Positions 1 to 4,147 of a stretch of 64,000 nt of DNA are shown one piece after another. The translations under genes and the position numbers were made by a program. Source of the DNA: Asaia bogorensis (lineage in GTDB: Bacteria; Pseudomonadota; Alphaproteobacteria; Acetobacterales; Acetobacteraceae); NCBI GenBank assembly GCA_943333505.2, contig CALQTN020000003.1, forward strand, positions 1 to 64,000. Direction: 5' to 3'. The notes below the pieces were generated by a model. The model ran no database searches and had not been told where the DNA came from. It saw only the letters and a list, made by a program, of their open reading frames with translations. Positions within the stretch are counted from its first letter, which is position 1; each line of letters starts with the position of its first letter.

Positions 1-1
1 C

Positions 2-49
2 CAGGGATCGTGACCAAGCCGGCCTCGCTCGGCCTGGTCACGATCCCTG
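2..49. repeat. Long perfect inverted repeat upstream of the first flp gene
   Basis: A 15-base arm, CAGGGATCGTGACCA (2-16), is exactly reverse-complemented at 35-49. GGCC at 21-24 can also pair with GGCC at 31-34. The structure ends 7 bases before the GGAG ribosome-binding site (57-60) of the flp gene at 68. No T-run follows, so a classical rho-independent terminator is not supported. It could be a 5' stabilising hairpin on a pilin mRNA, the end of an upstream operon, or a REP-type element. Its GATCGTGA core resembles the palindromes near 17.9 and 19.9 kb. Confidence 0.75.
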
Positions 50-67
50 ATCAGCTGGAGAATGACA

Positions 68-232
68 ATGTTTGAAGCTTACAAAACCATCAAAGCCCTC
101 GCTTCCGACCGTCGCGGCATCACCGCGATGGAATACGCCGTCGTTGCCGGCGCGATCCTGGCCGTGGCGCTGACCGCGTTCAACGCGCTCGGCACCAAGC
201 TGACCACCGCTGTCGGCGGCGTCACGCTCTGA
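68..232 (+). CDS. flp: Flp-type pilin, copy 1
   Basis: This 54-residue prepilin is the major subunit type of a Tad/Flp (type IVb) pilus. The leader is short and basic and ends RRG. Cleavage after that Gly by the prepilin peptidase would leave ITAMEYAVVAGAILAVAL, with the conserved Glu5-Tyr6 pair of Flp pilins and a hydrophobic helix for membrane storage and fibre packing. The ATG at 68 has GGAG at 57-60. The gene has the same length as the next copy at 307 and is nearly identical to it, so this is a tandem duplication. The stop lies inside a short palindrome, GTCACGCTC-T-GAGCGTGAC (221-239). It is too short for most gene callers but well supported by motif, RBS and context. Confidence 0.93.
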   Translation: MFEAYKTIKALASDRRGITAMEYAVVAGAILAVALTAFNALGTKLTTAVGGVTL

Positions 233-306
233 GCGTGACCTGATTGCCGGCCAACCCTCCGCCTGAAGGATTGGCGCTGAGGCAAAGATCAAGCAGGAGA
301 TTTACC

Positions 307-471
307 GTGTTCGACGCACTCAAGACCATCAAAGCCCTTATCGCCGATCGTCGTGGCATCACCGCCATGGAATACGCGGTTGTTGCGGGTGCGATCCTGG
401 CGGTGGCGCTGACCTCGTTCAACGCGCTTGGCACCAAGCTTACCACGATCATGGGCACCATCACGCTCTGA
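307..471 (+). CDS. flp: Flp-type pilin, copy 2
   Basis: A second 54-residue Flp prepilin. I place the start at GTG 307, because GGAGA at 296-300 sits 6 bases upstream and this gives exactly the length of copy 1. An upstream ATG at 244 would add an unlikely 21 residues. The processing site is RRG/ITAMEY, as in copy 1. The sequence differs from copy 1 mainly in the leader (VFDALKTIKALIADRR) and the last residues (TTIMGTITL). Two near-identical pilins suggest either a gene-dose effect or a mixed fibre. It is transcribed in line with the rest of the Tad locus. Confidence 0.93.
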   Translation: MFDALKTIKALIADRRGITAMEYAVVAGAILAVALTSFNALGTKLTTIMGTITL

Positions 472-576
472 TCCAGTCGAAACGTTTGCCAGGTTCGCCC
501 AGCGTGGGTCTGGCAAACAATTCGCACCCGGCCCAATCGCCGGGCACAATGCAACTATATGATCGGAGGTAGACCT

Positions 577-846
577 ATGTTCGATCTTTCGATATTACTT
601 CCCCAGATCGCACCGGTGTTGCTAGTAATGACGGCAGCCCCTGCGTTCAGGTCACGGCCACGGGACAGTGATGCCCATCCGCTGTTTTCGGCGACAAATT
701 CCTTTAACCACCTGCTCCTCGACCAACGCGGCATCACCGCCATGGAATACGCGGTTGTGGCAGGCGCGGTCCTTTCGGTCGCCTGGGTGGTATTCGTGGC
801 ATTGGGCACAGCGTTCAGCGACGCGACCGGCGGCACGCTGATCTGA
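577..846 (+). CDS. flp: Divergent Flp-type pilin with a long leader, copy 3
   Basis: This 89-residue protein has a C-terminal half that is a Flp pilin: the processing site QRG/ITAMEYAVVAGAVLSV has Glu5-Tyr6 and a hydrophobic helix. Its predicted leader is 52 residues and contains its own hydrophobic stretch (about residues 5-21), against about 16 in copies 1 and 2. The start at ATG 577 is fixed by GGAGGT at 565-570, 6 bases upstream. The bases coding for GITAMEYAV are almost identical to those of copy 2, while the flanks are unrelated. That fits duplication followed by divergence or gene conversion. It could be a minor pilin, or a copy whose N-terminus was replaced. Confidence 0.85.
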   Translation: MFDLSILLPQIAPVLLVMTAAPAFRSRPRDSDAHPLFSATNSFNHLLLDQRGITAMEYAVVAGAVLSVAWVVFVALGTAFSDATGGTLI

Positions 847-928
847 TCGCCGGCCGGCCCGCACACGCGGCAGCAACCTATTTCCCAAGCCCCAGCATGC
901 GCCGCGTCAAGCGGGCAGGACCCCGATC

Positions 929-1459
929 ATGGTAGCGCTTTCAGCCCAATTCATCTTGCCATTTGCCAGTGCAATTCTGTTGTTGATGGCCGCGGCATCC
1001 GACCTGGCTTGGCGCATCATCCCCAATCGTATCCCGGTTCTGGTTGCCTGCCTGGGTCTAGTTTCGCAATTTTTGATGGGCGATCCGGTCTGGTCGATCA
1101 TCGGGGCGGTGACGGTGTTTGCGATCTGTGCTGTGCTTTGGCGCTTCCATGTGATCGGCGGCGGCGATGTAAAGCTGCTCGCCGCTGTCGCGCTGTGTGT
1201 GCCACCGGCAGGGCTTCTTGGGCTTTATATCGCCATCACATTGACCGGCACAGCGCTGGGCCTGATCTATCTTGGCTTGCGGCCGGTGATGCGGGGCCTG
1301 GCGCCCCGGTTGCTGGCACGCTTGCCGAGGCCCTCGACGCTTGGGCGGCGGATCATGCGGGTTGAATTCTGGCGCATCGGCCGTGGCCGGTCGCTGCCTT
1401 ATGGCATCGCAATCGCCGCAGGAACCCTCACGGTAATTTTCCAGGGATTAAACCAATGA
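929..1459 (+). CDS. cpaA: Prepilin peptidase TadV/CpaA
   Basis: A 176-residue integral membrane aspartyl peptidase (A24 family, short form without the N-methylase domain) that cleaves Flp leaders at the Gly before the mature pilin. The two catalytic aspartates fit D25 in AASDLAWRIIPN and D80 in IGGGDVKLL. Both motifs are intact, so the enzyme should be active. There are several hydrophobic helices. The stop overlaps the ATG of cpaB (ATGA at 1456-1459), which indicates translational coupling. An 82-base gap separates it from flp copy 3. Family length is typically 150-180 residues. Confidence 0.93.
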   Translation: MVALSAQFILPFASAILLLMAAASDLAWRIIPNRIPVLVACLGLVSQFLMGDPVWSIIGAVTVFAICAVLWRFHVIGGGDVKLLAAVALCVPPAGLLGLYIAITLTGTALGLIYLGLRPVMRGLAPRLLARLPRPSTLGRRIMRVEFWRIGRGRSLPYGIAIAAGTLTVIFQGLNQ

Positions 1460-2316: not shown

Positions 2317-3833
2317 TGTCTGACCCTCGCAAGATATCCGCCGGGCCGGGGGCGTGGCGTTGGACGGGTGTCGCGTTGGCAACCCTTCCCTGTTTTCTGT
2401 CAACTACCATCGCGCAGGCGCAGTTATTCAAGCTTGATATTCCGGTCCCGGAAATGGCCAGGCCTGACACGTCACCCGCCCCAATGGTAAGGGTGCCATC
2501 CAAGCGCCCGGTAGGCCGGACGTCAGCGCCCGATCCGAACGCGCCGCCGGCGGAACTTGTGGCACGCCAGCGGGTAACCTTTGAGTCTGGATCAGGACAG
2601 TTGGTCACGCTCCGCGCCCCGGCCGCCAACGTATTTGTGGCTGACCCGAAAGTTGTCGACGTGCGGCCCGGCAGCGCCACGTCGCTCTTTGTGTTCGGCC
2701 TCGCCCCCGGACGCACGACGGTTGCCGCGCTGGATGATGAGGGTCGTGCGGTGGCCGAATTCGATGTTACGGTGAAGGCATCGTCATTCAACGCCAATGC
2801 CGCCGAAGCCGCCGTCAATACGCTCATGCCTGGCCTGGGGCTGCGGGTTGCAGCCCAGCCAAAGGGCCTGCTGGTCAGCGGCACTGTCGCATCACCGCTG
2901 GAGGCGGCCAGGGTGGCGGCTGTGGTGCGCAGCTTCCTGACCGAAGGCCAGATGCTGGAGGACCAGATCGGCGTCACCCAGCAATCGGTGCAGGTGCAAC
3001 TGCGTGTGCGGATCGCCGAAATGTCGCGCGAAGTCACCCGCGGCCTGGGGATCAACTGGCAGGCAATGGGCAAGCTCGGCGGCGTCGGGCTGTTCAATCC
3101 GCTGAGGATGGCGTCGGATCTGGCGTTCGGAACAGCACGCATTGGCAATAATGATGCCAACGCCTTCATTGACGCCCTCGCCACCGACAACCTCGCCCGG
3201 ATCCTCGCGGAACCCAATCTTGTGGCGATGAGCGGCCAAACCGCATCGTTCCTTGCGGGCGGCGAGTTCCCGATCCCGGTTTCCGGCACCGCCGGGACCG
3301 CAACCACCGGACCGTCGGTCACTGTCGAATACAAAAAATACGGCGTGCAGCTGTCGTTTCTGCCAACCGTTCTCGCCGATGGGCGGATCAATCTGAAAGT
3401 TGCCCCTGAAGTGAGCCAGCTCAGCAGCCAGGGCGCGGTTACCACCTCAACGATCACCGTGCCTGCCCTGGTCACACGGCGCGCGGAGACAACGGTGGAA
3501 CTTGGCAGCGGCGAGAGCTTTGCGATCGCCGGCCTGCTTCAGCAAAGCTCGACCCAGGCCGATAGTGGCCTTCCCGGCATTGGTGACGTTCCGGTTTTGG
3601 GGGCGTTGTTCCGGTCGGACAAGTACAAGCGGGCCGAAACCGAACTGGTGATCATCGTGACCCCTTATGTGGTTCGTCCGGTCGGCAAGCCCGACGCGCT
3701 GCATCTGCCGGGCGACGATTTCCGGCCGCCATCGGACCTTGAGCGCATTCTGGCGCTGCGCCAGGTCGGCAGCGCGAGCGGGGCGAAATTCACCGGTCAG
3801 ATACCTGGCCAAGCGGGATTTGTGATGCAATGA
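2316..3833 (+). CDS. cpaC: Type II/III-like secretin CpaC/RcpA of the Tad pilus
   Basis: A 505-residue outer-membrane secretin. It has an N-terminal signal region (hydrophobic about 16-36, ending AQAQ). N-terminal pilus-formation and BON-like domains follow (about 75-215, including VFGLAPGRTTVAALD), then the secretin domain (about 245-450). The family signature GIGDVPVLGALFRS lies near 415-430. The protein forms the channel through which the Flp fibre crosses the outer membrane. The next gene starts 4 bases inside its end (ATGA). A long antisense frame across it is only the GC-rich shadow. Confidence 0.95.
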   Translation: MSDPRKISAGPGAWRWTGVALATLPCFLSTTIAQAQLFKLDIPVPEMARPDTSPAPMVRVPSKRPVGRTSAPDPNAPPAELVARQRVTFESGSGQLVTLRAPAANVFVADPKVVDVRPGSATSLFVFGLAPGRTTVAALDDEGRAVAEFDVTVKASSFNANAAEAAVNTLMPGLGLRVAAQPKGLLVSGTVASPLEAARVAAVVRSFLTEGQMLEDQIGVTQQSVQVQLRVRIAEMSREVTRGLGINWQAMGKLGGVGLFNPLRMASDLAFGTARIGNNDANAFIDALATDNLARILAEPNLVAMSGQTASFLAGGEFPIPVSGTAGTATTGPSVTVEYKKYGVQLSFLPTVLADGRINLKVAPEVSQLSSQGAVTTSTITVPALVTRRAETTVELGSGESFAIAGLLQQSSTQADSGLPGIGDVPVLGALFRSDKYKRAETELVIIVTPYVVRPVGKPDALHLPGDDFRPPSDLERILALRQVGSASGAKFTGQIPGQAGFVMQ

Positions 3834-4147
3834 CCCAGTATGGCACATCGCGACTGATCGGCATGATCGGGACGCTCCTGGCCCTTGGCGCCTGCAGTCA
3901 GCACGAACCCTTCGAGCGGGTTGGAACCTGGCGCGCCGAAGGCAGCAACCAGGCGAACCTCGCCGCCATGGCCGCCAATCCGCTCGATCTCGTGCAAGGC
4001 CGCAGTGACCCATCGCCGCGCGTCAAGCAACCCGGCGACGCGGTTACCAATATGTGGGCGACCAAACCGACCCAGGCCCTGCTGCCGGGCCTGAAAGGTG
4101 GCGGACCTGCCGGCGGACCCGCCGCCACACCGGCGGCCACACCATGA
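3830..4147 (+). CDS. cpaD: Short CpaD-like pilus assembly lipoprotein
   Basis: A 105-residue predicted lipoprotein. A signal peptide ends in the lipobox LALGAC, so Cys would be acylated near residue 22. The conserved CpaD stretch NLAAMAANPLDLVQGR follows (about 43-58) and a Gly/Pro/Ala-rich tail closes the protein. CpaD proteins are usually about 200 residues, so this one keeps only the C-terminal half of the family. Position between cpaC and cpaE supports the call, with ATGA overlaps on both sides. Its role is probably secretin localisation or assembly. A reduced CpaD could be a lineage feature rather than decay, because the frame and overlaps are intact. Confidence 0.82.
   Translation: MTQYGTSRLIGMIGTLLALGACSQHEPFERVGTWRAEGSNQANLAAMAANPLDLVQGRSDPSPRVKQPGDAVTNMWATKPTQALLPGLKGGGPAGGPAATPAATP

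Follow-up and report, generated by a model that had tools for sequence, protein, structure and literature searches.

In published descriptions, type IV prepilins have a single hydrophobic helix, and their leader is hydrophilic. The product of the third Flp gene at the start of contig C3 does not fit this description: its leader is 52 residues long and contains a hydrophobic stretch of its own, which raises the question of what such a precursor might contribute to a Tad (type IVc) pilus. Here we address this question by a computational analysis of the window, the whole 64,000-nucleotide stretch of DNA that was analysed, which is the start of the contig. The gene, its orthologs, the selection on its leader, the conservation of its processing-site residues and its genomic context were all computed. 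An earlier note had described three Flp genes, the third with the long leader, and its coordinates and gene calls were confirmed; we refer to the third gene (flp3, copy 3) as flpL and to its protein as FlpL:

68..232, + strand: flp1, an ordinary 54-residue Flp prepilin with a 17-residue leader and a 37-residue mature part; Pfam Flp_Fap 30.3 bits
307..471, + strand: flp2, an ordinary 54-residue Flp prepilin (17 + 37) with a GTG start; Flp_Fap 31.5 bits
577..846, + strand: flpL, an 89-residue long-leader Flp prepilin with an ATG at 577
929..1459, + strand: cpaA/tadV prepilin peptidase (Peptidase_A24), which probably carries out the processing

The two short genes, first described as near-identical, share only 44 of 54 residues (81%), with 32 of 37 identical in the mature part. 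The three genes are indeed in a row, as first described, but the array is cut by the contig end and comprises a further short flp. The tail of contig C69 holds a complete short flp (L034:7304-7465), the mature part of which is the same as that of flp1, followed by the start of flp1; this tail overlaps the window start by 163 nt, with 160 of 163 bases in agreement and three mismatches. We infer the C69–C3 junction from this overlap. With this additional short gene, the array most probably reads short-short-short-long (three short genes and one long), like those of the related genomes G001 and G004. An inverted repeat separates the upstream short flp from flp1 (window 1-50; L034:7475-7524), and all three mismatches fall inside its left arm.

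Upstream of the array, C69 encodes an OmpR-type response regulator, and its opposite strand encodes a Tad-domain (TadG-like) protein, a TadE protein and a 119-residue protein with a pilin-like beginning and no Pfam match. Downstream, the order is cpaA, cpaB, cpaC, cpaD-like, cpaE-like, cpaF, tadB/tadC-like genes and a LuxR-type regulator, of which cpaA, cpaB, cpaC and cpaF were assigned by Pfam, and the cpaE-like and tadB/C-like genes were named from their own sequence. The CpaD-like protein (window 3830-4147) is short, at 105 residues, and matches 22 positions of PF09476, below the cut-off. The conserved stretch before cpaA (window 897-935) holds a 12-codon open reading frame, the stop of which overlaps the cpaA start in three of four genomes; by eye, G003 has ATA in place of its ATG. 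Taken together, the genes on C69 and C3 look like one Tad locus with three short pilins and one long pilin.

The earlier note had suggested looking for long-leader Flp proteins in other Acetobacteraceae. A protein search of 60 relatives revealed (nearly) full-length FlpL orthologs in three of the four congeners searched, namely G003 (79% identity), G001 (79–80%) and G004 (62%), in each case between the last short flp and cpaA; the contig of G003 starts within the flp array. The remaining matches among the 60 relatives begin at residue 19 or later and correspond to the Flp parts. Profile A1, run against 397 family genomes, of which 38 gave any match, recovered the same four FlpL proteins and no other match from residue 1, the others beginning at residue 6 or later and scoring at most 52 bits. 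Two peptide patterns searched against GTDB contigs found the three orthologs and the short Flp of G002. This fourth genome, of the same genus, has three short flp genes followed by cpaA and lacks flpL, which is therefore dispensable for Tad pili in general. By CpaB, G002 is the most distant of the five (76–79% to the others, which share 87–95%), and flpL may have been either gained after the split of G002 or lost in G002. Judged by sequence, FlpL is a conserved, lineage-restricted Flp variant in an uncultured Acetobacteraceae group.

The reading frame begins behind a strong ribosome-binding site, which the earlier note had already taken as support for the long form:

565..570, + strand: flpL Shine-Dalgarno sequence GGAGGT, with CGGAG conserved in all four orthologs

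The ATG start is likewise kept in all four orthologs, counting the window, and the comparison of dN/dS that the note had suggested points the same way. Relative to the window flpL, the leader ratio is 0.17 (G003), 0.13 (G001) and 0.16 (G004), and that of the mature part is 0.18–0.29. Across all six ortholog pairs, the leader ratio spans 0.13–0.60; the highest value comes from the close pair G003–G001 (4 silent and 7 replacing changes), in which the second half of the leader reaches 1.73 (1 silent, 5 replacing), so that these ratios give no support for recent constraint in that pair. Within residues 2–18, the variable codon columns at positions 1, 2 and 3 number 10, 0 and 10 of 17 (Fisher p 1.5e-4 for position 1 versus 2, to be read as a guide because the rows are related). 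With the second codon positions fixed, I, V, L, M and F swap among themselves, indicating selection for hydrophobicity. The gap in the G004 leader comprises three whole codons. Given the conserved Shine-Dalgarno sequence and ATG, the low leader dN/dS and the hydrophobicity-preserving codons, translation very likely yields the long form.

Translation could instead start at residue 17–18, leaving a hydrophilic leader of 35–36 residues, or at a CTG at Leu36, leaving an ordinary leader of 17. All four orthologs have an in-frame start codon 35–36 residues before the cut (ATG, GTG, GTG and TTG), and three have CTG at Leu36. However, the Shine-Dalgarno sequence precedes residue 1 throughout, the second codon positions of residues 2–18 never vary, Leu36 is CTA in G003, and by eye no Shine-Dalgarno sequence precedes the later codons, so that we consider a late start highly improbable. 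A start close to QRG, the outcome that would have contradicted the first description, is unlikely, as no ATG, GTG or TTG lies nearer than those 35–36 residues upstream in any of the four orthologs, and the Leu36 codon is CTA in G003. Least probable of all the readings considered is that flpL is a decaying or selectively neutral flp duplicate. Its absence from G002, the Y6C replacement and small deletion in G001 and the leader ratio of 0.60 in the G003–G001 pair would be expected of such a gene, but the frame is intact in all four orthologs, the Shine-Dalgarno sequence is conserved, and the ratios relative to the window (0.13–0.17 for the leader, 0.18–0.29 for the mature part) speak for constraint.

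The FlpL protein comprises three parts:

577..681, + strand: N-terminal addition of 35 residues, with a hydrophobic segment (residues ~4–24) and an Arg-rich linker
682..732, + strand: residues 36–52, which resemble an ordinary 17-residue Flp leader in register and end in QRG
733..843, + strand: mature Flp pilin part of 37 residues, with E5 and Y6 kept and no Lys

The leader, MFDLSILLPQIAPVLLVMTAAPAFRSRPRDSDAHPLFSATNSFNHLLLDQRG (52 residues), ends in QRG, and the 37-residue mature part, ITAMEYAVV..., has no Lys, as is also the case in the three orthologs; the hydrophobic leader stretch and the Lys-free mature part of the first description thus both hold in all four. Against Flp_Fap (PF04964), FlpL scored 22.8 bits (E 7.8e-5), below the gathering cut-off of 32.2; flp1 and flp2 also fall below this value, and the Pfam cut-off therefore does not discriminate here. 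In a comparison of flp1 with solved structures, Flp/PilA chains were weakly matched (8u2b, E 0.16; 8u1k, E 0.19), below designed-repeat proteins. Solved-structure relatives of the profile amounted to five matches (E 0.04–0.97) with no pilin among them, and NCBIfam gave one match per protein, far under its cut-off; both results were taken as chance.

The Gly before the cut and the GxxxxE(Y) motif are present, QRG being followed by I(T/S)(A/G)MEY in three orthologs and by ITGMEC in G001, and Q50, R51, G52, I53, M56 and E57 are invariant in the four. A hydrophobic helix follows the cut, and the tad/cpa operon to which the gene belongs also encodes a prepilin peptidase. FlpL departs from the family in its leader, typically short and hydrophilic in Flp proteins, although variable in length; in all four orthologs, it has 49–52 residues and a hydrophobic stretch. 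In the Caulobacter pilus, E5 and Y6 (Glu19 and Tyr20) make conserved hydrogen bonds, as described in a passage of PMC11067988. Because G-1, I1 and E5 are invariant, FlpL is likely to be cut by CpaA and to have some assembly competence. In G001 (L036:8859-9113), Cys replaces the conserved Tyr6 and four residues are missing near the C terminus, for which reason the constraint on assembly may be relaxed in that genome.

Alternatively, FlpL might be cut slowly or not at all; it would then remain an inner-membrane protein with two helices, serving as a Flp-like anchor or a base subunit in pilus nucleation or regulation. The additional anchor helix, the more hydrophobic and Lys-free mature helix and the two changes in G001 would suit such a role, whereas the invariance of Q-2 R-1 G, I1 and E5 in four orthologs with diverging flanks, and the position of cpaA directly after flpL, argue for cleavage; we regard an uncut anchor as possible but unlikely. 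A membrane-anchored form with different processing had also been proposed at the outset. Its first half agrees with the predicted membrane span of the leader, but QRG, E5 and cpaA favour ordinary cleavage.

The 19-residue hydropathy peak of the four orthologs is 1.73–1.95 in the leader and 2.21–2.44 in the mature part, as compared with 2.05 for flp1 and 1.94–2.14 for five CpaA N termini. In all four, Lys and Arg number 0 in the N flank, 4–5 in the loop before the cut and 0 in the C tail. Since these residues are confined to the loop, FlpL is predicted by the positive-inside rule (as given in part of PMC10191384) to be a two-helix prepilin with its N terminus out, loop in and C terminus out, and its processing site facing CpaA. 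An AlphaFold model contains helices at residues 8–20 and 39–85, although it is weak (mean pLDDT 64.5).

A different topology would result if the hydrophobic stretch were a Sec signal peptide cut between A(A/S)PA and F, so that the loop would lie in the periplasm and the pilin helix would be turned around. The sequence TA(A/S)PAFR after the hydrophobic stretch is conserved in all four orthologs and resembles a signal peptidase I site of the A-x-A type. However, such a cut would invert the pilin helix and place QRG beyond the reach of CpaA. Furthermore, no Lys or Arg precedes the hydrophobic stretch and 4–5 follow it, the opposite of an exported start under the rule given in part of PMC10191384. 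We therefore consider this reading very unlikely and retain the two-helix prepilin with a cytoplasmic loop.

The leader was at first described as unrelated to those of the short copies. It is not wholly unrelated, however, as its last 17 residues resemble the short leaders. When residues 36–49 were compared with 11 short leaders over their first 14 positions, the in-register alignment was the best in all four orthologs (shuffle p 0.001–0.03; p 0.014–0.097 without the last residue, a shared Asp). The codon at the place of the old start ATG is that of Leu36 (CTG in three orthologs, CTA in G003). Because of the resemblance of residues 36–52, an ordinary flp (17-residue leader and 37-residue pilin) seems to have gained about 35 N-terminal residues. 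The FlpL leader and the CpaA N terminus look alike by eye, but when the four leaders were aligned locally with five CpaA starts, the block-shuffle p values were 0.034–0.844, with 1 of 20 pairs below 0.05, and an origin from cpaA was rejected. In 24 DNA comparisons with segments of flp, cpaA/cpaB or the C69 tail, read frame-shifted or inverted, no source was found (p 0.050–0.993), and within its own genome the leader matches itself alone (E up to 10). No source of the addition was thus found in the genome itself, the cpaA starts or the neighbouring DNA segments.

Around the processing site, the likeness of the third copy to flp2 noted at first is real, yet it extends equally to flp1: over codons -4 to +13, flpL is identical to each of them at 43 of 51 nt. 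After the cut, flp2 has a set of codons (GCG GTT GTT GCG GGT) that otherwise occurs in flpL of G003 (window 350-420 for flp2 and 722-790 for flpL). These common codons are suggestive only of gene conversion between flp2 and flpL.

To assess how unusual the leader is, we surveyed Flp-like open reading frames by motif. The family survey covered 200 genomes, 113 with a Flp match; from the matches listed, open frames of at least 75 were fetched and seven regions were added. Among at least 157 distinct Flp-like frames, five had the nearest start 35 or more residues away, namely the four FlpL orthologs and L145 (35 residues, hydropathy 0.43). The class survey covered 337 genomes, 152 with a match, and among the matches listed, open frames of at least 86 were fetched except for G619; its new loci added at least 76 distinct Flp-like frames (a few TadE-like), three of them with the nearest start at least 30 residues away (L222, L230 and L237). 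A recheck comprised 246 sequences with 233 distinct Flp-like frames among the matches listed, in which poorly matching Flps are under-sampled. At the best Shine-Dalgarno-placed start, the 15-residue hydropathy of the leader exceeded 2.0 only in the four FlpL orthologs (2.03–2.28), with L104 reaching 1.75 among these 233 listed frames. At the farthest possible start, eight more of the listed frames reached 1.6 or above (L022, L115, L150, L154, L201, L219, L220 and L228), each with a better-placed start 13–21 residues from the cut.

The region before flpL and its codons bear on its expression:

483..519, + strand: stem-loop of 16 pairs between the last short flp and flpL, a consensus prediction from four orthologous loci

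At two pairs, a single genome has both partner bases replaced, and three pairs are each broken in one genome. The stem-loop is conserved in four genomes and has no clear T run; it could possibly be an attenuator or an mRNA stabiliser. With six operon genes as the reference, codon adaptation is 0.55–0.60 for flpL and 0.56 for cpaA, as compared with 0.54–0.76 for ten short flps, nine of which reach at least 0.67; the second short flp of G004, at 0.54, is as low as flpL. With a rare-codon set of our choosing, flpL of the window genome has 18 of 89 such codons versus 1 of 54 in each short flp, and the other genomes have 13–15 per flpL versus 0–5 per short flp. The poorer codons and the hairpin would fit a minor pilin with a possibly low expression.

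Among known systems, Caulobacter PilA (PDB 8U2B) and the Flp family share with FlpL the G|xxxxEY processing site, the helical mature pilin and the gene beside cpaA. The mature pilin has 45 residues in PilA and 37 in FlpL, and the PilA leader has 14 residues (per a passage of PMC11067988) versus 52 with a hydrophobic stretch. Passages of PMC6916266 and PMC10191384 describe type IV leaders as hydrophilic and of 6–51 residues, and as variable in length, respectively; by these accounts, type IVa pilins with long leaders from Firmicutes, for example Streptococcus sanguinis, resemble FlpL in leader length but have hydrophilic leaders, in contrast to the predicted span of FlpL. According to part of PMC5430801, the Flp motif usually lies 5–20 residues from the start; the same account describes Bdellovibrio Flp2, which is, like FlpL, an atypical Flp encoded at a Tad locus, but represents the opposite extreme, with no processing Gly and the motif at its very beginning. 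No prepilin whose leader spans the membrane was found in the limited open-access literature searched. In the Myxococcus Kil (Tad) pilus, the Flp-like, fully helical minor pilins KilK and KilO couple tips to the filament, act together with both the tip complexes and the major pilin, and are jointly needed for polymerisation (part of PMC12075869). FlpL similarly is an extra Flp-like helical pilin; for KilK and KilO, only a leader region and a cleavage motif are mentioned there, and an adapter role for FlpL would follow by analogy only.

With moderate confidence, we favour FlpL as a low-abundance minor pilin of the adapter type in the adhesive Tad (type IVc) pilus, released from a two-helix prepilin by CpaA; its topology, cleavage, low expression and adapter role we infer as follows. 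flpL is paralogous to the operon's short flp genes and would have arisen when an ordinary Flp prepilin acquired about 35 N-terminal residues comprising a membrane span and an Arg-rich linker. The precursor would insert as a two-helix hairpin with its N terminus outside, its positive loop in the cytoplasm and its pilin helix directed outward, placing the junction of QRG and ITAMEY where cytoplasmic-face prepilin peptidases, here CpaA, cut. The membrane-anchored leader might slow or localise release of the 37-residue pilin, which would then sit between a TadE/TadG-like tip and the short-Flp filament. Of the tip or minor pilin first suggested, a minor or tip-proximal role is plausible, consistent with the conserved G-1 and E5, the more hydrophobic, Lys-free mature part, the poorer codons and the hairpin, but a narrow tip role is less likely than an adapter, because C69 carries genes for TadE and a TadG-like protein beside the flp array.

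A variant of this model, which we consider distinctly unlikely, is that FlpL is a two-part precursor: the CpaA cut would yield both the 37-residue minor pilin and a 52-residue anchored leader with a job of its own, for example keeping each filament's initial pilin at the platform or occupying CpaA. If so, one cut would free an initiator pilin and leave behind a membrane regulator. More generally, a prepilin with a selected, leader-borne second span would test how prepilin peptidases gain access to their substrates and whether leaders have roles beyond targeting, and FlpL points to specialised minor Flp proteins, whose roles in Tad filaments are little known.
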